Below, one piece after another: positions 8,709 to 29,676 of a stretch of DNA of 55,142 bases. The notes beneath the pieces are model-generated. The model ran no database searches. It was not told the origin of the DNA and worked only from the letters and a program-made list of their open reading frames with translations. Within the stretch, counting starts at the first letter, position 1; each line of letters starts with the position of its first letter. Origin of the DNA: Planctomycetota bacterium (GTDB taxonomy: Bacteria > Planctomycetota > Planctomycetia > Planctomycetales > Planctomycetaceae); the NCBI GenBank assembly GCA_003670925.1, contig QWQG01000017.1, forward strand, positions 1-55,142. The letters run 5' to 3'. The translations under genes were made by a program, and so were the position numbers.

Positions 8709-9650
8709 ATGGGATTGTTCGACAAACTCAAACGCGGACTGGAAAAGACGAAACAGATTCTGCGAACCGATGTTCGGGACTTGTTCCGGGCCGGGCAGAT
8801 TCTGGATGACAAACTGCTGCAGGATTTCGAAGCTCGCATGATCCGCACCGATATGGGTGTGAAGGCGGCCAGCCAGATCGTGGAACGGATAAGAACGGAT
8901 CATGGCGGACGAACCATTGATGTGGATGCCGTCTGGAAGACGATTCACGACGAAATGGTCGAGCTGCTGAAGGGCCACGACGCCGTTCGCTGGGACCTGA
9001 GCAATCCGCTGTCACCGCTGGTCAAGGTGGCCTCCGGACCGACCGTGATCCTGGTTGCCGGTGTGAACGGCGTTGGCAAGACGACATCGATCGCCAAGCT
9101 GGCAAACCTGCTGCAGAAGAACGGCAACAAAGTCGTGCTTGCTGCCGGCGACACGTTCCGCGCGGCGGCGGTGGAGCAGCTTACGTTGTGGAGCGAACGC
9201 CTGGGCTGCACGATTGTCCGCAAGGAAAGCAATTCCGATCCGGCGGCTGTCGCTTACGACGGCGTTCAGAAAGCAGTCGAGATTGGAGCCGACTATCTGA
9301 TCATGGACACCGCCGGTCGCCTGCAGACTCAGAAGAATCTGATGGATGAACTCGAAAAAATCCGCCGTGTCATGCGGAAGATCATTCCCGATGCACCGCA
9401 CGAAAGCCTGTTGGTGCTTGATGCCACAACCGGCCAGAATGGACTGAGCCAGGCCAAGAGTTTTTCACAGGCCATCGGCTGCACAGGACTCATTCTGGCC
9501 AAGCTCGACGGCACAGCGCGTGGCGGCGTGGTGATCGCCATCCGGCAGGAAATGGGATTCCCTGTGAAGTACATTGGCGTCGGCGAACAGATCGATGACC
9601 TTGAACTCTTCGACCCGGACAGCTTTGTGGATGCGTTGTTTGCGAAGTAG
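8709..9650 (+). CDS. ftsY: Signal recognition particle receptor FtsY
   Basis: A 313-residue SRP-type GTPase that docks ribosome-nascent-chain complexes at the membrane and hands them to SecYEG. The helical N domain opens with MGLFDKLKRGLEKTK. The G domain shows the P-loop GVNGVGKTT near residue 119, DTFRAAAVEQL, the DTAGR switch near 201, the DATTGQNG region, the TKLD-equivalent AKLDGTARGG, and the closing GVGEQIDDLELFD signature. The long acidic A domain found in enteric FtsY is absent, as in many phyla. I start at ATG 8709, where similarity begins; the frame is open 28 codons further up. Its stop codon is part of a hairpin shared with the convergent DUF1080 gene. Confidence 0.96.
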   Translation: MGLFDKLKRGLEKTKQILRTDVRDLFRAGQILDDKLLQDFEARMIRTDMGVKAASQIVERIRTDHGGRTIDVDAVWKTIHDEMVELLKGHDAVRWDLSNPLSPLVKVASGPTVILVAGVNGVGKTTSIAKLANLLQKNGNKVVLAAGDTFRAAAVEQLTLWSERLGCTIVRKESNSDPAAVAYDGVQKAVEIGADYLIMDTAGRLQTQKNLMDELEKIRRVMRKIIPDAPHESLLVLDATTGQNGLSQAKSFSQAIGCTGLILAKLDGTARGGVVIAIRQEMGFPVKYIGVGEQIDDLELFDPDSFVDALFAK

Positions 9651-9666
9651 TGCAGCAGCTACTTCG
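9643..9666. terminator. Convergent hairpin covering both stop codons
   Basis: CGAAGTAG (9643-9650) and CTACTTCG (9659-9666) are perfect 8-bp arms around an 8-base loop. The left arm contains the ftsY TAG and the right arm, read on the minus strand, contains the TAG of the DUF1080 gene. A bidirectional terminator is inferred; no U-tract follows. Confidence 0.5.
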
Positions 9667-10414
9667 ATGCATCTTTCTCAGCTGGTTTCTCTTCCGTCTT
9701 TGGCAGCGGTCGCAGTTTGACGTTACGGATTTTCGCGGTGGTTTGCCATGTGGCGAATCCGAATGGCTTCGAGCGATCGACTTCAAAGCGTGTGCTGATT
9801 CGCTGGCCGGTGGTATCGACATCGACGATCTGTTTGTCGTTGATCCATGCGCTAATGTGGTCGTCCGTTACGACCAGACGAATCTTGTACCATTGACCCT
9901 TTTTGAAGTCGCCGTAGCTGGTGGTTTCATTCTCGGACGCATCCATGCCGCTCAGGCTGGACAGCCCGCAAACGCCGCCACCCCAGCCTCCCACGATGAG
10001 TGAACAAAAGCTGTCTTTGACAGGAAATGTGAGACCCGCAAAGAAGTCACTACCCGCTGCCCGCTGGGCTTCGAACTGGACTTCGTAGTTGGATTTTGGC
10101 AGTTCTTGTTCTGTGTGAATTCCTGACAAGTCTGATCCCTGCGAAATCACGACGGCTCCCTCTTCGATGTAGATATCGCCTTCACCGCCGAATTTGGTGA
10201 CTTTCCAGCCTGCCAGATCCTTGCCGTTGAAGAGCGATGTCCAGCCCTCTTTGTCCACGGCGGCGTCTTTGGGCGGTGTGTCTTCAGCTTTTGCTGCGGG
10301 CTTGGGTTTGTCAGCCGCTGGCTTTTTGTCGTCGGCCGCGTGGACTTGTGAAAGCGTTAAGCTCAACGTCACAATTGACGCGGCGAAAAGACAGGCGTGG
10401 AATATGCGGATCAT
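9659..10414 (-). CDS. Secreted DUF1080 (3-keto-disaccharide hydrolase-type) protein
   Basis: A 251-residue protein with a signal peptide (MIRIFHACLFAASIVTLSLT) and a lysine/alanine/proline-rich linker near residues 28-55, followed by one DUF1080 domain. The domain starts with the diagnostic GWTSLFNGKDLAGWKV and ends with KIRNVKLRPL, the fold being a laminin-G-like beta sandwich. DUF1080 members are abundant in planctomycetes, and some hydrolyse 3-keto-glucosides; the substrate here is unknown. I chose ATG 10414 because GGAG lies 8 bases upstream and the signal peptide follows; the frame is open upstream. A short Lys/Glu-rich tail ends the protein. It converges on ftsY with only 8 bases between stop codons. 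Confidence 0.88.
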   Translation of the reverse strand: MIRIFHACLFAASIVTLSLTLSQVHAADDKKPAADKPKPAAKAEDTPPKDAAVDKEGWTSLFNGKDLAGWKVTKFGGEGDIYIEEGAVVISQGSDLSGIHTEQELPKSNYEVQFEAQRAAGSDFFAGLTFPVKDSFCSLIVGGWGGGVCGLSSLSGMDASENETTSYGDFKKGQWYKIRLVVTDDHISAWINDKQIVDVDTTGQRISTRFEVDRSKPFGFATWQTTAKIRNVKLRPLPKTEEKPAEKDASK

Positions 10415-20589: not shown

Positions 20590-20959
20590 CAGATTCACGC
20601 CATCCGCTGATGTGCTGAATTTGCATGATGCGGCTAATCGATCCTGCATCCGGCCGCTTCGCTTGATTTCGATGGCCATCCTGTTCGTCGTGGACGCCTG
20701 CTGCTGCCGGAGCAGAGGTGCATGCTCGTGGAGACGATCCTGCCGATTGTAATCAGAATATGCATTTTAACGTGTGACGCACACGTGTTGAAATATTCGG
20801 ATCCTCCCTCATGCATGCGGCATATTCGTTTCAGAACAATAAAACGTCCGCGAACGAGTTCCAGCGAAGTGGATTATCGCTTTCTGGGCGACGAGCATGA
20901 CCTACGTTTTCTTGAGCAGAATCGGTCTCAGGTACATTTTTTGCGTTGTAAAGACAAAA
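20590..20959. other. Intergenic region before the kinase-tubulin operon
   Basis: About 370 bases, AT-richer than the neighbouring genes, containing a palindrome at 20770-20786. The frame of the FHA-EAL gene is open back to an ATG at 20897, so the last 63 bases might be coding. It must carry the promoter of the three-gene operon. Confidence 0.5.
20770..20786. promoter_or_regulatory. Operator-like palindrome ACGTGTG-ACG-CACACGT
   Basis: Perfect 7-bp arms around ACG, about 190 bases before the FHA-EAL start and just after an AT-rich stretch (AATCAGAATATGCATTTTAA). The shape fits a dimeric repressor or activator site; the regulator is unknown. Confidence 0.35.
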
Positions 20960-22144
20960 ATGAACACAGACATTGGTCAGCTAAAAAACTCAAATAACAC
21001 CGTGATTCTCGATGATATGCTGCTGCACGTCGGCTCCAGCATTATTAACGAGACATGCTCTACAAAAGCCCAACCGCGAGGCCAGTGGACGTTATCACGA
21101 ACTTGTGGAGTAAATGAAACCCAGCAAAGTGTGCATGTGGTGGGGCCGTTATTTACGATTGGGCGATACAAGTATGGTACTTTGCATATTGCAGATCCGA
21201 CGGTTTCCGGACGTCATGCAGAAATCTTGATGATCGATCGTGACATCTTCATCCGCGACCTTAACAGCACTAATGGTACGCTGCTGAACGGTCGCAAGCT
21301 GCATAACTTGACGGGACTTCGTTCTGGTGACATCCTGCATTTCGGCAGTGTGATGTTTGTGTTGCACTCGTCCACGGACGAAAACACGACTTCCACCATC
21401 GCGGCTGATTCGGACAACGAAGTGATCGCTCAAACGCAATTTGAAAGACTCCTGCGACCGCCTGCGTTACGACCCTATTACCAGCCGATCATTCGTTTGA
21501 GCGACAATGTTCGCGTAGGCTATGAAGTTCTGTCACGCAGCTATCTGCTGGGATTGGAAACACCCGATAAGATGTTCCGCATTGCCGCCATCCGTAAAGT
21601 GGAAGCCCAATTGAGCCAGGCTTGCCGCACCGAAGGTCTCCGCATCGGCGCAAGCCTCGGAAACATGCCTTTTTATCTCAACACACACCCGGCTGAACTC
21701 AAGGGCACAGAACTCTTTAAATCTCTGGAACAACTTCGGGCAGATTTCCCGGATGCGGAAATCGTGCTGGAAGTTCACGAGGGAGGGATGGTCTCCAGCG
21801 CGATGCTGCAAGATATTCGCATGGTGACTCAGGGCTTGAACATGAGACTGGCCTACGACGACTTCGGAGCAGGACAGGCTCGCCTGCAAGAACTGTTTGC
21901 AGTTCCGCCGGACATCTTGAAATTCGACGTGAAGTTCGCCCAAGGGTTGGCATTCAGTCCGCCCCAGCATCGTGCCGCAATAGCATCTTTGATTCGGATC
22001 GTGCGGAATTTGAACGTGATACCGCTCGCTGAGGGTGTTGAGACAATGGAGGAGGCTGTCGCCTGCCAAGATTTGGGCTTCGAACTTGCCCAAGGTTACT
22101 TGTTCGGTCATGCCGAGCCGGTTCGACACTGGACTACTACCTAA
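20960..22144 (+). CDS. FHA-EAL protein (phosphothreonine-binding c-di-GMP phosphodiesterase)
   Basis: 394 residues from ATG 20960 (an in-frame ATG at 20897 is possible). An FHA domain at about 60-137 shows FTIGR, then SGRHAEI and DLNSTNGTLLNG, the phosphothreonine-binding residues. An EAL domain at about 165-394 begins YYQPIIRL and keeps the catalytic set: EVL (E189), N241 in LNTH, E271/E274 in EVHE, DDFGAG (D300, D301), K321 in LKFD, and E358 in AEGVET. It should therefore hydrolyse c-di-GMP rather than merely bind it. Cytoplasmic, no membrane segments. It is first in an operon with an AAA+ ATPase (12 bases on) and a Ser/Thr kinase fused to a tubulin-like domain, which is the obvious source of the phosphothreonine ligand. 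Confidence 0.9.
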   Translation: MNTDIGQLKNSNNTVILDDMLLHVGSSIINETCSTKAQPRGQWTLSRTCGVNETQQSVHVVGPLFTIGRYKYGTLHIADPTVSGRHAEILMIDRDIFIRDLNSTNGTLLNGRKLHNLTGLRSGDILHFGSVMFVLHSSTDENTTSTIAADSDNEVIAQTQFERLLRPPALRPYYQPIIRLSDNVRVGYEVLSRSYLLGLETPDKMFRIAAIRKVEAQLSQACRTEGLRIGASLGNMPFYLNTHPAELKGTELFKSLEQLRADFPDAEIVLEVHEGGMVSSAMLQDIRMVTQGLNMRLAYDDFGAGQARLQELFAVPPDILKFDVKFAQGLAFSPPQHRAAIASLIRIVRNLNVIPLAEGVETMEEAVACQDLGFELAQGYLFGHAEPVRHWTTT

Positions 22145-22156
22145 GAACCCAAACCC

Positions 22157-23497
22157 ATGCTCAAAGGACGTTCCCCACAGGGAAACAATCCCGATTCCGC
22201 CCTGCTTGCAGCATTATTGGCCGGCGAGAATTTTTGGCCATCTGATCCTGCTTCGTTGCATGAGCTGGGTCTGAATGAACCTTTTATTGAAGGTCTCATC
22301 TGTCGTTTGCTGCGATCAGCGGGAAATCAGACTGGGCGTAAGATAGCGAGTGCCGTCTGCATTCCCTTCCGCATGATCGAAGGCTTAATGGAGCGTCTGA
22401 AATCTAAACGTATGGTGCTGCATTGTGGAAGTGCCAGCCTGAATGACTATATCTTTGGGCTGACCGACGAAGGTCGTCGCCGTGCGGAAACATCTCACTC
22501 CGAATGCGCCTACACAGGACCAGCACCGATCCCGTTGAACGATTATGTCATTTCCGTCGAGGCGCAGGCAATCTGTGATCAGCCGATCCGCCGCGAGGAA
22601 CTGGACGATGCATTTTTCAACGTATCGATGTCCGAAGAACTCTTCGACATGATTGGCCCGGCAGTCAACTCTGCCAGCGGGCTTTTTCTGTATGGCGCGC
22701 CGGGGAATGGGAAATCGACTATCGCCCGCTGCCTGACTCAGTGTTTCGGGCAGGAGATTTGGATTCCGTATGCGATCATCGAAGGACAAGAAATCATCAT
22801 TCTGTTTGATCCTGCGTATCACGAGATTATCGAGCAACCGCATGAAGGACTGCCGTTTGATCGCCGCTGGGTTCGCGTTCGCAGACCCACGGTCATCGTC
22901 GGTGGCGAACTGACACTGGACAGTCTGGAAATCCGACATGATCCCGCGAGCAACATCAGTGAAGCGCCTTTGCAGATGAAAAGCAACTGTGGATGCCTGC
23001 TGATCGATGATTTTGGTCGCCAGCGTGTGTCACCCGAGCAACTGCTCAACCGCTGGATCGTGCCGCTGGAAAACAAGTACGACTATCTCACGCTGCCCAA
23101 CGGTAAGAAGATTCAAGTTCCATTCCAGCAGCTGATTATTTTCTCCACAAATCTGGACCCTGCCGATCTGGTGGATGAAGCATTTTTGAGACGTATTCCG
23201 TACAGGATTGAAGTCACTGATCCGCAGGAAGTAGAAATGCATCGGTTGTTTCAGATCGCATCTGATAACCTCGGCTGCGCATACAATCTGGAATCGATTG
23301 AGCACCTGCTGGAAAACTACTACCGCGAGCAAGACCGCCCAATGCGGCGGTGTCATCCGCGAGATTTGCTGTTGCAGCTCCGGAATTTCTGTATGTACCG
23401 TGGTATTCCATTCGAAATGCACCCTGATCATTTCGACCATATCGCCCAATCGTTTTTTGCGCGAGTGCGCACTCGTCCCTTGAATGCGTCACTTTGA
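22157..23497 (+). CDS. AAA+ ATPase with N-terminal winged-helix-like region
   Basis: 446 residues. Residues 1-140 look like a helical/winged-helix adaptor (FRMIEGLMERLKSKRMV, FGLTDEGRRRA). The AAA+ core has Walker A GAPGNGKS at 180-187, Walker B LLIDDFG at 281-287, a sensor-1-type strand IIFSTNLDP and an arginine-rich box FLRRIPYRI. A C-terminal lid with RRCHPRDLLLQLRNF follows. Stand-alone ATPases of this type occur near secretion and signalling loci in planctomycetes; the substrate is unknown. It sits 12 bases after the FHA-EAL gene and 34 bases before the kinase-tubulin gene, so it probably remodels or loads something in that system. Confidence 0.82.
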   Translation: MLKGRSPQGNNPDSALLAALLAGENFWPSDPASLHELGLNEPFIEGLICRLLRSAGNQTGRKIASAVCIPFRMIEGLMERLKSKRMVLHCGSASLNDYIFGLTDEGRRRAETSHSECAYTGPAPIPLNDYVISVEAQAICDQPIRREELDDAFFNVSMSEELFDMIGPAVNSASGLFLYGAPGNGKSTIARCLTQCFGQEIWIPYAIIEGQEIIILFDPAYHEIIEQPHEGLPFDRRWVRVRRPTVIVGGELTLDSLEIRHDPASNISEAPLQMKSNCGCLLIDDFGRQRVSPEQLLNRWIVPLENKYDYLTLPNGKKIQVPFQQLIIFSTNLDPADLVDEAFLRRIPYRIEVTDPQEVEMHRLFQIASDNLGCAYNLESIEHLLENYYREQDRPMRRCHPRDLLLQLRNFCMYRGIPFEMHPDHFDHIAQSFFARVRTRPLNASL

Positions 23498-23531
23498 GAA
23501 GTCTTGACAACACGTCTGTAAAAGAAGTCTT

Positions 23532-26500
23532 ATGAGCGACACCGACGTCAGTTCGACACAGTTGTGCAGCGATGTGGTACCCAATATGATGCTCCGTGGC
23601 GTCACCGAAATTGCCGGTTACCGAATGCTGGAATGCATCGGGGTGGGTGGATTTGGAGAAGTCTGGCGCGCAGTGGGGCCGGGCGGTTTTCCGAAAGCCG
23701 TCAAGATTCTGTTCGGACTTATGGATGGTCCTCAGGCTGATACCGAACTCGAGTCGCTGAGTCGTATTCGTGAACTACGGCATCCATTTCTGCTCAGTAT
23801 CGAACGGGTGGAAGTCATCGATGGGCGCGTCATCATCGTGACCGAACTTGCGGATCGCAGTCTGGACCAACGATTCCGTGAACTGGTCGCTTCCGGACAA
23901 CGCGGAGTCTCGCGCGACGAACTGTTGTGTTACCTCCGTGACGCAGCTGATGCTCTGGACTTCATGTTCGAAGAACACGGCCTGCAGCACCTCGATATTA
24001 AGCCCGAAAACCTGCTGCTGCAGGGCGTTCATGCGAAAGTAGGTGACTTTGGTCTGACGAAAACTGTTGGCGCGGCGCGACATTCACAGGTCAAAGGTTT
24101 CACGCCGATGTATTCACCGCCAGAACTGTTCGACGGCTGCCCGGATCGTGGCAGCGATCAATACAGTCTAGCTATTGTGTATCAAACGATGCTCACTGGA
24201 ATTCCTCCGTTCAATGGACGGACACCTTCACAACTGATGGCTCAGCATCTCAAAAGTTCGCCGGATCTGAGCAGTCTGCCCCCGTCGGACCGAGCGGTTG
24301 TAGCGCGGGCTCTCTCGAAGAATCCACGCACACGGTTTACAAGCTGTCGGCAGTTTATTGAAGAATTAACGAAACGCCGCCCGCAGCCGTCGCTCAGTCG
24401 TGGTGAATCTAGAGGCTCGGGCTTCGCAAATCATGAATCGCCAATAATCTTTGGCAGCACGGAAAATATCGCAACCAATCATAGGATCCTGCACGGCATG
24501 GCGAGGCCTTTGGCCCCTGTCAAAAGCCTACCGGAAGACACGCAGTTTCGCCCAACTTTGTTTGTCGGATTCGGAGGACTTGGTTGCCAGACGATTACAT
24601 TGCTAAATCAGAAAATCCAAAAGCGTTTCCCACATGCCACTCTGCCGGCAATCCAGTTTTTGTGCATCGATACAGACCCTAGCGCGATGTCAGATCTTAA
24701 GCGACTCAGTGCCATAAATCACCGGGCCGTAACCACCGTCTGCGTCCCATTGCGGACGACTCAGGACTATCGCAAAACGTCATCTGACCATCTGGGATGG
24801 CTTAGCCGACGCTGGCTGTTCAATCTTCCCCGCAGTGGGCTTGTTGAATCCATGCGGCCTTTGGGACGTCTGGCTTTTGTGGACCATGTGGCGAGCATCC
24901 GCATCGCACTGAAGGACAGGCTAAAAGTTCTCGTGGATTCCGCTTCGGCCGACACCTCGACGTCTGAAACCGGATTGCAGTTCGAGACACTCGGCATCGA
25001 CGTATGTCTTGTTGGTTCAACTTCCGGAGGGACAGCAAGTGGTTCCCTAATAGATCTGGCGTGGCTGGTTCGTGAACTTCTGAGCAATGGTCGGATGCCG
25101 CCCGCGCGGGTGACGTCCATGCTGCTGCACGGCACGAGCGGCGATCGCCAAGTCATCGACCTGCAGGATGCCAACACGGTCTGTTTCTTGCAGGAGCTTC
25201 AGCATTTCTCGGTACTTGGCGTGCAACGCCCCGGGCTGACCTCGCGATTTTCTGGTTCTGAAATGGCAAAACCGTTCGACGAAACGACGTTTGTGCATTT
25301 CGGTGACGACCTTTCGGATCTCGCCTTTTTCGAAGGCGTGAATCGCACGGCTGAATACCTCGAATTACGCACACTCACGTCGGCTCGTCGAGAAATGAAT
25401 GCATGGCGTAACCCGGAGCGAACACAGATCTTCGCAAGCCATGAAGCCTCGTTGCGTTCATTCGGGCTCTCATCGATAAATGCGGAAGCGTGGGAAATCG
25501 CTCATCGCGAAGCTGGCCAACTGGCTGCCGCTGCCATCACGCATTGGACGCAGCCAGCGGCCGGTGAACCTAATTCGCCCGAATGGATGGCGCTGCTTGA
25601 TCAACTGGGCATCAGCAGTGAAGCTGGACAGCAGGTCATTCCACGCCTGCTTGATGTCGGCCGCACGCGGCGGATGGATGAATATGCGAACAGTATCTGG
25701 CAGCGATTGTCGCGAGATTCTGACGTGTCAGTCAGGGAGCAGGTTTCCGCAATCATCCGGCAGGACGCACTTCCAGCGAATGCGCATAATTCTATTACCG
25801 CAGTTAGCGAAGAAATTCGTACGGAACTGGCCGTGCGGCGACCGTTGGATTTACAGTTCGTAGAATCCTTCCTCCTGCAATTGCTCGATACCCGCATGCG
25901 ACCGGGCTTGACGATTCAGGCTTTCACGTCTCTGAGACAGTGCACCGATCAGGCATTAGTCGCATGTCGGTGTCAGCAAAGCCATCTGCAGTTTGCATTC
26001 AATGAATTGTGTGCCTCGTATTCAGTCAGAAAGCCCGAACAGACGACGGATGCTGGGCACGCTGCTCTCCGCAGTGTCTGCCGGCAGTATTGTATGCTAT
26101 TCACTTGCCAGACGATCTGCCAAACATTGCTCGAACACTTACAGTCCCTTCAGGCCGCATTGCCAAATATTTTGGCAGAACGGTACATGATTCTCGGCAA
26201 CCGGCTACAAGCACTTGCGTTGCAGGTGAACGATGGAGCTCCTTGTTCTGTGATCATCCCCGAACAAATGATCTCGGCTTTTGAAGCCTATCTGCAGACG
26301 TCCGGTCGATTTAAAGTCAGTTCGTTGAGTCAAGAGATCCTACTGGCCGATGCCGCAACGCTGCTCGCAGAAGCCGCGGACTTCCTCCTGCTGAGTATGT
26401 GCCGCAGCCCGGAGTTCGCAGATAACGAACATCTGCCGCAACACCATGCCATATTTCCAGAGAATGCCAAACCGAAACTTCAGAATGTCGGCGGCGGGCA

Positions 26501-26735
26501 ACGTGTGCTGGCCGTGCTTCCTGAGCCGCAGCCGACTGAGGTCTGGGAGTCCATCTTAACGCCTGCTTTCGGCGAATGCGTCTCGACCTGTTCGACAGAA
26601 ACAGTCGATATTTGTGTCGTCTGCGAAACCGAAGGCATCGCTATTTCGGCGACCGTCGATGCCCTGACCCACATGCGACCTCACATCCTAGAACTTGCCG
26701 GCCGGCTTCACGCGCGGCAGGACGTTCCATGGTAG
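23532..26735 (+). CDS. Ser/Thr protein kinase fused to a tubulin/FtsZ-like GTPase domain
   Basis: 1067 residues. A Hanks kinase occupies about 29-282: GVGGFGEVW (37-45), AVKIL with Lys58, HLDIKPENLL with Asp155, Lys157 and Asn160, DFG at 172-174, and SPPE. All catalytic residues are kept, but the usual HRD arginine is leucine. After a linker, residues from about 340 match the bacterial tubulin-like family (Tubulin_2): TLFVGFGGLGCQTITLLNQ, FLCIDTD, and GSTSGGTASGS at 495-505 in the position of the FtsZ/tubulin GGGTGTG phosphate loop. The last 500 residues are mainly helical with no recognised domain. No membrane segment. Planctomycetes generally lack FtsZ, which makes a tubulin-fold protein notable. 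Partners: the AAA+ and FHA-EAL genes just upstream. Confidence 0.85.
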   Translation: MSDTDVSSTQLCSDVVPNMMLRGVTEIAGYRMLECIGVGGFGEVWRAVGPGGFPKAVKILFGLMDGPQADTELESLSRIRELRHPFLLSIERVEVIDGRVIIVTELADRSLDQRFRELVASGQRGVSRDELLCYLRDAADALDFMFEEHGLQHLDIKPENLLLQGVHAKVGDFGLTKTVGAARHSQVKGFTPMYSPPELFDGCPDRGSDQYSLAIVYQTMLTGIPPFNGRTPSQLMAQHLKSSPDLSSLPPSDRAVVARALSKNPRTRFTSCRQFIEELTKRRPQPSLSRGESRGSGFANHESPIIFGSTENIATNHRILHGMARPLAPVKSLPEDTQFRPTLFVGFGGLGCQTITLLNQKIQKRFPHATLPAIQFLCIDTDPSAMSDLKRLSAINHRAVTTVCVPLRTTQDYRKTSSDHLGWLSRRWLFNLPRSGLVESMRPLGRLAFVDHVASIRIALKDRLKVLVDSASADTSTSETGLQFETLGIDVCLVGSTSGGTASGSLIDLAWLVRELLSNGRMPPARVTSMLLHGTSGDRQVIDLQDANTVCFLQELQHFSVLGVQRPGLTSRFSGSEMAKPFDETTFVHFGDDLSDLAFFEGVNRTAEYLELRTLTSARREMNAWRNPERTQIFASHEASLRSFGLSSINAEAWEIAHREAGQLAAAAITHWTQPAAGEPNSPEWMALLDQLGISSEAGQQVIPRLLDVGRTRRMDEYANSIWQRLSRDSDVSVREQVSAIIRQDALPANAHNSITAVSEEIRTELAVRRPLDLQFVESFLLQLLDTRMRPGLTIQAFTSLRQCTDQALVACRCQQSHLQFAFNELCASYSVRKPEQTTDAGHAALRSVCRQYCMLFTCQTICQTLLEHLQSLQAALPNILAERYMILGNRLQALALQVNDGAPCSVIIPEQMISAFEAYLQTSGRFKVSSLSQEILLADAATLLAEAADFLLLSMCRSPEFADNEHLPQHHAIFPENAKPKLQNVGGGQRVLAVLPEPQPTEVWESILTPAFGECVSTCSTETVDICVVCETEGIAISATVDALTHMRPHILELAGRLHARQDVPW

Positions 26736-28401: not shown

Positions 28402-29676
28402 ATGACAACGACGCGGCGCGACATTCTAAAAGCCTGCCTTGCCGGGGCTGTGGCATCGACAGTTCCGCAACCATTCTCGCTCTTTGCGGACCAGAAAGCC
28501 CGCCCGCGCCGCAGACTGCCGGTGGCCGCTGTCGTCTCCGTGTACACACCGAGCAGCCATGCGGATGTGATTGTGGGGAAGATTCTGGAAGGGTATCAGC
28601 AGGATGGCGGAAGAGGACCAGACCTCGAAGTCGTGTCGGTCTTCACTGATCAGGTTCCGGCTGAAGACATGAGTCGTGAGAAGGCAGTCAAGCACGGCTT
28701 TCGAATCTCACCCACGATCCGTGACGCCCTCACTCTGGGCAGCGATCAGCTTCAGGTGGCTGGTGTGCTCTGCATCGGAGAACATGGCGATTACCCTCGC
28801 ACGCCGGATACCGAACAGAAGATGTATCCTCGCCGCCGATTCTTTGATGAAGTCGTCGATGTGTTTCGCGATTGCGGTGAAGTTGTTCCCGTGTTCAATG
28901 ACAAGCACCTTGGATATCGCTGGGAGGATGCCACGGCGATGGTTGAGACCGCTCGGCAACTGGAGATTCCCTTCCTTGCCGGTTCATCACTCCCCGTCGC
29001 ATGGCGGATGCCTGCGTTGGAGTTGCCACGCGACTGTGAAATTGAGGCAGCGCTGACGATCGGTTATGGGGGATTTGAAGATTATGGATTCCATGCCCTT
29101 GAAGCCCATCAGTGTCTTCTCGAGCGCCGAGGTGGTGGTGAGACCGGCGTGGCGGCAGTTCGTACGGTACGTGGAGACATGATTCGAAAGTCGGAACTGG
29201 CCGGTGATTGGTCCCCCGAACTGTTTGCAGCCGCACGTCGCCAGATGCCTAGTGCTCCAGAGGACACTCTGGCGTGGAAGCCAAGTTCTGAAGCGGCCGC
29301 CTATCTCATTGAGCACCGTGATGGGTTGCGCTCGGCAGTCGTGATGGCCAACGGCCTTGCCGGTCACTTTTCCACGGCACTCTTGATTAGAGGCCGAACC
29401 GAGCCTGTGGGGACGTGGTTCAAGCTTCAGGAAGGCCCGCCATTCGGTCATTTTGCTTATCTCGTGCGTGCGATCGAAGAAACGTTTCACACGGGCAAGT
29501 CTGCCTATCCGGTGGAACGTACGTTATTGACAACCGGAATCCTTGACCGCGTGATGCACAGTCTGGCAAGTGAGGGTCAACGCTTCGAAACCCCTGAACT
29601 CGCCGTTAACTATGCCGCTGCTGAATGGCCATTTGCCAATCATCCGGACTCGCCCCTGCACCTGCCCAATGACTAA
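28402..29676 (+). CDS. Tat-exported protein of unknown function
   Basis: 424 residues with a twin-arginine leader at the very start (TTRRDILKACLAGAVAS). No catalytic family is recognised. Recurrent features: VAAVVSVYTPSSHADVIVGK early, VLCIGEHGDYPRTPDTEQKM near 120, and PVFNDKHLGYRWEDATAMVE. The fold looks like alternating beta/alpha with a Rossmann-like beginning. Exported planctomycete proteins of this kind are commonly annotated hypothetical. It follows a DUF1501 gene in the same direction. A 96-base internal piece (29073-29168) recurs almost unchanged at 36057-36153, suggesting a second, now lost, copy of the gene existed nearby. Confidence 0.75.
   Translation: MTTTRRDILKACLAGAVASTVPQPFSLFADQKARPRRRLPVAAVVSVYTPSSHADVIVGKILEGYQQDGGRGPDLEVVSVFTDQVPAEDMSREKAVKHGFRISPTIRDALTLGSDQLQVAGVLCIGEHGDYPRTPDTEQKMYPRRRFFDEVVDVFRDCGEVVPVFNDKHLGYRWEDATAMVETARQLEIPFLAGSSLPVAWRMPALELPRDCEIEAALTIGYGGFEDYGFHALEAHQCLLERRGGGETGVAAVRTVRGDMIRKSELAGDWSPELFAAARRQMPSAPEDTLAWKPSSEAAAYLIEHRDGLRSAVVMANGLAGHFSTALLIRGRTEPVGTWFKLQEGPPFGHFAYLVRAIEETFHTGKSAYPVERTLLTTGILDRVMHSLASEGQRFETPELAVNYAAAEWPFANHPDSPLHLPND

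Follow-up and report, generated by a model that had tools for sequence, protein, structure and literature searches.

A conserved kinase-tubulin, FHA-EAL and winged-helix AAA+ gene set in Planctomycetia and its possible role in phospho-signalling

Three adjoining genes were analysed on contig QWQG01000017.1 of a member of the Planctomycetaceae (Planctomycetota bacterium, assembly GCA_003670925.1), within a stretch of 55,142 nucleotides (positions 1 to 55,142 of the forward strand) that is called the window below. Their open reading frames (ORFs) lie head to tail on the + strand and encode an FHA-EAL protein, an AAA+ ATPase and a protein in which a Ser/Thr kinase domain is followed by a tubulin-family domain, with intergenic gaps of 12 and 34 bases by ORF coordinates. 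A first-pass annotation of the letters alone had placed the ORFs and gaps correctly and had suggested a phospho-signalling system coupling a cytoskeletal element to the turnover of cyclic di-GMP (c-di-GMP). The genes and the features within them are as follows.

20960..22144, + strand: FHA-EAL protein, 394 amino acids (ORF, Pfam, alignment of relatives)
21155..21346, + strand: FHA domain, residues 66-129 (Pfam; conserved residues)
21395..21397, + strand: Thr146 codon in the FHA-EAL linker, candidate phosphosite (conserved Thr, alignment-dependent)
21443..22111, + strand: EAL domain, residues 162-384 (Pfam; nine scored catalytic/metal residues all present)
22157..23497, + strand: winged-helix AAA+ ATPase, 446 amino acids (ORF, motif alignment)
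22256..22561, + strand: N-terminal winged helix, residues 34-135 (predicted model, Foldseek)
22694..22720, + strand: Walker A loop, residues 180-188 (8 of 9 positions invariant in 29 of 29)
23532..26735, + strand: kinase-tubulin protein, 1067 amino acids (ORF, Pfam)
23619..24350, + strand: Ser/Thr kinase domain, residues 30-273 (Pfam; residue conservation)
24558..25529, + strand: Tubulin_2 domain, residues 343-666 (Pfam, predicted model)
25026..25043, + strand: glycine loop GGTxSG, residues 499-504 (alignment of relatives)
25578..26483, + strand: predicted helical insertion inside the tubulin fold, about residues 683-984 (predicted model)
26496..26732, + strand: C-terminal strand-helix segment, residues 989-1067, a putative completion of the tubulin C-terminal domain (predicted model)

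Pfam matches above the cut-offs were obtained for the EAL (1e-32), FHA (1.2e-15), Pkinase (8.5e-26) and Tubulin_2 (PF13809; 7.9e-28) domains, and an alternative in-frame ATG at 20897 would lengthen the FHA-EAL protein by 21 amino acids. Promoter and terminator scans of the locus gave chance-level results only, and no iterated repeats were found near the genes, only matches of 14-27 bases that occurred in two or three copies and were 74-93% alike.

The first-pass annotation had proposed asking whether the three genes are conserved together, and they are. When 170 genomes of the order were searched by Tubulin_2 alone, an unbiased set in which every matched place was examined, Tubulin_2 was matched in 35 genomes and the kinase-tubulin fusion in 32, at 33 loci (L065 and L067, both contig ends from G020, were taken as one gene). 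An AAA+ gene, whole or cut, adjoins the fusion at 32 of these 33 loci and an FHA-EAL gene, whole or cut, at 29; three of the loci lacking FHA-EAL are contig ends (L061, L062, L064), and the fourth (L066) has a broken kinase-tubulin frame and no AAA+ gene either. The kinase-tubulin gene of G021 (L064) is fragmented as well, and in G131 an FHA-EAL gene stands next to a 90-residue frame that holds an AAA+ fragment, which looks like a decaying module. The FHA-EAL genes of L034, L043, L055 and L063 were missed by the gene caller, which had preferred longer other frames, and were recovered by tblastn. Gene order varies, with the EAL gene upstream on the same strand, divergent (L033, L048, L051) or downstream (L094, L108, L110, L115) and the whole order reversed in L122. 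The three-gene arrangement is thus confirmed as real and beyond chance, and it recurs across Planctomycetia in several gene orders. L122 and L123, both from metagenome-assembled genomes labelled only 'bacterium', carry a diverged module, that of L122 running kinase-tubulin, AAA+, FHA-EAL; G060 has two copies of the fusion (L043, L062).

Tubulin_2 proteins without a kinase domain were found by Pfam in G123, G126 and G156 and as a second copy in G012, where the module (L042) and a separate kinase-less protein (L060) coexist. These proteins (L032, L047, L057, L060; about 890-1050 amino acids, in varied surroundings within the same order) were not counted as modules, as no AAA+ or FHA-EAL gene adjoins them. 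In the window the three genes are flanked by DUF1501 and PSD1-type genes (Pfam), which looked unrelated to the first-pass annotation and do so here: beyond the three genes, no neighbouring family occurs in more than 9 of 71 loci, the commonest reaching 9 of 71, with the seven of these tested by Pfam being GGDEF proteins. A 424-amino-acid protein for which Pfam gave no match at E values up to 1 is encoded at 28402-29676 of the window, 3' of the second DUF1501 gene.

A sample of 392 genomes of the phylum gave the same association. AAA+ matches above 700 bits, a line set after seeing the gap between scores of 701 and 592 bits, occurred in 10 genomes, and the kinase-tubulin fusion in the identical 10; among 30 further genomes with only lower-scoring AAA+ genes the fusion occurred in none, two of them (G156, G247) having a kinase-less Tubulin_2. 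Eight genomes outside the class carry Tubulin_2 with no kinase match within 1.5 kb upstream, although that of G205 is cut at the contig start. Since the genomes of the phylum are related, these co-occurrence counts are not to be read as probabilities. Taken together, the genomes establish the predicted kinase-Tubulin_2 protein, FHA reader and winged-helix AAA+ protein as a conserved and largely co-inherited set.

In the kinase domain, the residues that we take as the Hanks-type set (K, E, HxD, N, DFG, PE) are almost fully retained: K58, E72, H153, D155, N160, D172, G174 and E198 are kept in 59 of 59 sequences, and the DFG Phe and the PE Pro in 58 of 59 each. Downstream, the Tubulin_2 match (98.2 bits against a cut-off of 27) includes a GGTxSG loop, presumably the tubulin T4-type glycine loop, whose glycines are kept in 59, 58 and 54 of 59 sequences, its Thr in 48 and its Ser in 52. 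The AlphaFold model of the tubulin part is confident (predicted local distance difference test, pLDDT, 87.4; predicted TM-score 0.80), and its top Foldseek match was CetZ2 (7.7e-8). Structural alignment gave Z 25.3 and a root-mean-square deviation of 4.0 over 300 residues for CetZ (3zid), and Z 22-23 over about 320 residues for tubulins, running from model residue 5 to 733 and over nearly the whole target, where the aligner reports the first and last aligned residues only. Because the alignment spans nearly the whole target with about 300 mostly helical residues of the model inside it, between model positions 349 and 650, we infer from the model that the tubulin C-terminal domain is present, split by a helical insert. 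At the C-terminus R1062 and D1064 are invariant and W1067 is kept in at least 90% of sequences; a free tubulin-like tail was considered as a role for this motif and dropped, as many relatives extend beyond it. The genome of the window has one Tubulin_2 protein, the sole tubulin relative found, and a whole-genome search at E 0.001 returned nothing for the FtsZ/tubulin family PF00091, while its control was positive in 13 of 14 genomes.

The AAA+ protein reached the cut-off of no Pfam or NCBIfam family (best Pfam AAA_16, 18.4 bits against 32.6). The P-loop and the blocks that we take to be Walker B (DD), STN, RR and HxRD are nevertheless invariant in 29 relatives, save for one P-loop Ser kept in at least 90%. 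The whole model is poor (pLDDT 62), so its fold search is informative for the winged helix alone, a block with pLDDT 80-93 apart from its final five residues; the best Foldseek matches of this N-terminus were MarR-type winged helices, with the plasmid centromere-binding protein 4rs8 among them. The winged helix means that remodelling, the activity given to this protein in the first-pass annotation, is not the sole possible reading. A likeness to the microtubule-severing protein spastin (PDB match, E 2.4e-7) was given little weight because it covers only the surroundings of the P-loop (profile positions 134-207), and Msp1 and VCP-like ATPases came next at 4e-4 to 9e-4.

In the FHA-EAL protein, the six residues that we take as the phosphothreonine-reader set (G-R, S-x-x-H, N-G), namely G68, R69, S83, H86, N105 and G106, are intact in all 72 FHA genes near a kinase-tubulin gene. 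Both the kinase and the FHA domain are hence predicted to be functional, in line with the first-pass annotation, which had them writing and reading phosphothreonine. For the EAL domain, nine positions presumed to form the metal and catalytic set were scored, and these are complete in the window, where the residues support a working phosphodiesterase and c-di-GMP hydrolysis is predicted, and in 56 of the 72 genes overall. Sixteen genes score five or less; leaving out L031, whose EAL is cut by a contig end, the domain is degenerate in 15 of 71 scorable genes. The claim that the EAL domain can degrade c-di-GMP therefore fits the window and its branch and does not extend to the whole module, whose core would be the kinase-tubulin protein, the FHA reader and the AAA+ protein. 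With 5 GGDEF and 3 EAL domains in the genome of the window, c-di-GMP is likely made there.

Beside most degenerate FHA-EAL genes lies a divergent REC-GGDEF-CBS gene, or a remnant with only some of these domains recognised, and the GGDEF motif is lost in 17 of 17 copies examined there, some of them near-identical. In the branch of the window an adjacent GGDEF gene, where present, keeps its motif in 8 of 8 examined. The EAL and GGDEF enzymes thus seem, by their residues, to be retained or lost as a pair, with the FHA reader retained. A kinase tree built by a quick method places 14 of the 15 degenerate rows together in a set of 18 rows; since the active rows L122 and L262 sit inside this set and the degenerate L254 lies apart, a single origin of EAL decay is not shown. 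Copies of FHA-EAL away from the fusion were also seen: one more lies on a separate contig of the window's genome (L207, G000:C172, 7652-8779), with no kinase-tubulin gene in view and a kinase-like gene about 1.3 kb upstream, and in the region 7655-11654 of L211 an FHA-EAL gene with neither kinase-tubulin nor AAA+ beside it adjoins a 953-amino-acid frame with a kinase match, an arrangement suggesting that FHA-EAL proteins may pair with other kinases too.

We propose, at about even chances, that the set is a phospho-signalling module built around a tubulin-family kinase. The tubulin part would bind guanosine triphosphate (GTP) and switch its assembly state, and assembly would gather the kinase domains, which may then place phosphothreonine on themselves or on the FHA-EAL linker; binding of this residue by the FHA domain would rearrange the EAL domain and, in the branch of the window, alter its phosphodiesterase activity, after which the AAA+ protein might remodel the tubulin or the FHA complex and so return the whole to its starting state. 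The EAL domain of the other branch, together with the GGDEF neighbour where it was examined, probably acts as a binding or adaptor domain. More tentatively, and with the balance of probability tilted against it, the fusion could be a receptor kinase in which the GTP-driven assembly state is passed through phosphothreonine and the FHA domain to the level of c-di-GMP, with the AAA+ protein as the disassembly factor, the synthase/hydrolase pair of the sister branch having decayed to pseudo-enzymes around an intact reader. The polymerisation, the phosphorylation, the signalling link and the function as a whole are what we infer from genes and models; the interpretation in the first-pass annotation is partly supported. 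The order set and the phylum sample are the main basis of this weighting.

Further observations on linkage bear on the module reading, some for it and some against. Against it, AAA+ paralogues are common, and the genome of the window itself has one (L178, G000:C123, at 8941-10326 of its locus), with no kinase-tubulin gene seen there. When an AAA+ alignment was used to scan a collection of 84,980 species, all five domains were matched in 43 of the best 80 loci, in which linkage to AAA+ exists by selection. The pooled loci held 103 kinase-tubulin genes, 85 of them distinct at 97% kinase identity, and 67 of these 85 with at least 4.5 kb of sequence upstream; within 6 kb of these 67 an FHA gene was found for 63, an AAA+ gene for 60 and both for 58. 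FHA was missing at L066, L260, L111 and L117, although the genome of L260 carries FHA-EAL and AAA+ on another contig (L092), and the Rhodopirellula-type L111, L116 and L117 have an FHA-EAL inside the module clade elsewhere in the genome (L199, L196, L197). Among 27 named loci without a kinase match, the 12 with a module-type-looking AAA+ were followed and the other 15 served as control. In favour of the module, each of the 12 genomes carries a kinase-tubulin gene, located on another contig in 11 of them and, for L123, on the same contig about 4 kb from FHA-EAL, with an FHA gene near 9 of the 12, an EAL piece at the contig end for two (L257, L258) and none for one (L260). In a search by the tubulin region, a match was however found in 6 of the 15 control genomes too (L267-L273), which had been reached by way of an AAA+ paralogue; they include those of L131, with an AAA+ sister to the module AAA+ of L128, and L136, from the same assembly as the module-bearing L126. 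The two groups thus differ without separating cleanly, which weakens the result for the 12; our weighting was left unchanged by it.

Co-variation speaks for the module, with a reservation. Over 48 complete loci, distance correlations were 0.83 for kinase and AAA+, 0.81 for kinase and EAL, 0.75 for AAA+ and EAL, 0.73 for kinase and tubulin (the fused control), 0.62 for kinase and FHA and 0.58 for tubulin and EAL, none of the six being reached in 500 permutations. The first two are as high as the fused pair, and shared ancestry explains part or all of this. Against the module reading, FHA-EAL is the loosest member of the set: its alignment (A2) matched at 1e-25 in 84 of the 170 order genomes against 32 with the fusion (at least four of the 84, G026, G027, G030 and G073, being EAL-only), and G007, G144 and G062 retain a module-type FHA-EAL with no Tubulin_2 found. 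The EAL domains of the 15 degenerate genes look dead by their residues. FHA genes were collected by profile, so a badly decayed FHA domain would escape the count of intact readers. Thr146 lies in a linker that otherwise varies; one alignment has this Thr in 70 of its 72 rows, and in smaller alignments its column holds other residues in part of the rows. Finally, the T7 catalytic acid, which we take as an NxDxxD-like motif, was not seen in canonical form in the aligned region of the tubulin part, which makes GTP-driven polymerisation uncertain.

The patchy spread (32 of 170 genomes) would also suit a conflict system, anti-phage or self-limiting, in which the kinase-tubulin protein senses invasion and assembles while the FHA and AAA+ partners execute the response. 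PADLOC matched the kinase domain to mad6 (8.5e-36) and PD-T4-6 and the AAA+ protein to IetA (9.5e-8), and tubulin-bearing conflict systems have been predicted in other phyla (PMC7159879). The kinase matches, however, span the kinase domain alone, the IetA matches reach no more than 30 bits, and several tree groups follow genera, as expected from vertical descent with loss. Neither vWA, GAP1 nor MoxR was found over cut-off by Pfam among seven window proteins scanned (the AAA+ protein scored 14.4 bits against the bpMoxR model, cut-off 27), and we regard such a system as unlikely.

That the tubulin part takes a cytoskeletal role in membrane remodelling or in budding, with c-di-GMP giving the cell-cycle cue, is less probable again. 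Planctomycetes lack FtsZ and bud by an unknown mechanism (PMC6952346), the genome of the window has no PF00091 match, and membrane remodelling was earlier proposed for FtsZl1 (PMC2875224); against this, the three proteins show no conspicuous membrane segment (top 19-residue hydropathy 1.76), and a fusion present in only 32 of 170 order genomes is not a general division protein. Least probable is a positioning or partition machine, in which the AAA+ winged helix binds DNA, a tubulin-like filament moves it and kinase and FHA regulate the process, for although the MarR-type winged helix, with the centromere-binding 4rs8 among its matches, and the tubulin/CetZ fold of the predicted model would suit it, winged helices frequently bind proteins, iterated repeats are absent near the genes and the AAA+ model is weak.

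The module reading predicts two outputs that can be assayed, phosphotransfer and c-di-GMP hydrolysis, since the conserved partners include an enzyme whose chemistry is known beside a kinase and a phospho-reader. The module also offers a cytoskeletal candidate for bacteria whose division does without FtsZ, even if so patchy a distribution speaks against its being essential to division. Parts of it have been described before. Makarova and Koonin (2010; PMC2875224) described an N-terminal kinase in four FtsZl1 proteins of planctomycetes; a referee pointed to a diguanylate phosphodiesterase, Psta_0487, adjoining one of them in Pirellula staleyi, and the authors replied that such genes were confined to one or several close organisms and set the phosphodiesterase aside. 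That exchange can now be answered, as the link, then left for lack of genomes, occurs in dozens. In the available text of the same paper the T6-H7 elements and C-terminal similarity of FtsZl1 were unidentifiable, and no experimental role was given to FtsZl1/Tubulin_2 proteins; a later paper notes that these FtsZ-like proteins carry Tubulin_2 and repeats the kinase remark (PMC9871819). The first-pass annotation knew of no description of the system. For the three-gene set none was recognised among the papers listed from the open-access literature (subscription papers and supplements lay outside the search, and one may be in print), but the fusion and one adjacent phosphodiesterase were published in 2010. 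No experimental study of an FtsZl1/Tubulin_2 protein was recognised among the same listed papers.

Compared with known systems, the module shares with FtsZl1/Tubulin_2 operons the Tubulin_2 domain and a kinase, which is often present in those operons, but most of them include a vWA gene, frequently with a GTPase gene as well (PMC2875224), partners of which none was found among the seven window proteins; the main text of that paper mentions FHA nowhere and AAA once, for chelatases. The GAP1-N2 systems, among the tubulins in conflict systems described from firmicutes and actinobacteria by Kaur et al. (2020; PMC7159879), resemble it in having a tubulin-family protein, a coiled-coil or helical C-terminus and a multi-gene NTPase layout, and differ in their GTPase/vWA partners, with no kinase-tubulin fusion or EAL domain in the available text. 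As regards partition, our locus departs from the TubZ-TubR type in that the winged helix is carried on the AAA+ protein, a kinase and FHA-EAL are added and no repeats were found. TubZ-TubR does pair a tubulin-family protein with a winged-helix protein, as here. For the proposed FHA-EAL switch, GarA and OdhI are among the closest likenesses, in which an FHA domain binds phosphothreonine in its own chain, although to our knowledge they carry no c-di-GMP domain. These switches are named in the study of DgcB of Bdellovibrio (PMC6733907), a c-di-GMP enzyme that is gated by FHA and binds the phosphothreonine of its own tail. DgcB differs in having a GGDEF synthase instead of EAL, and the available text of that study mentions no tubulin or AAA+ partner, but it too fuses FHA to a c-di-GMP enzyme and uses the FHA domain to read phosphothreonine, a precedent that an FHA domain can gate such an enzyme.

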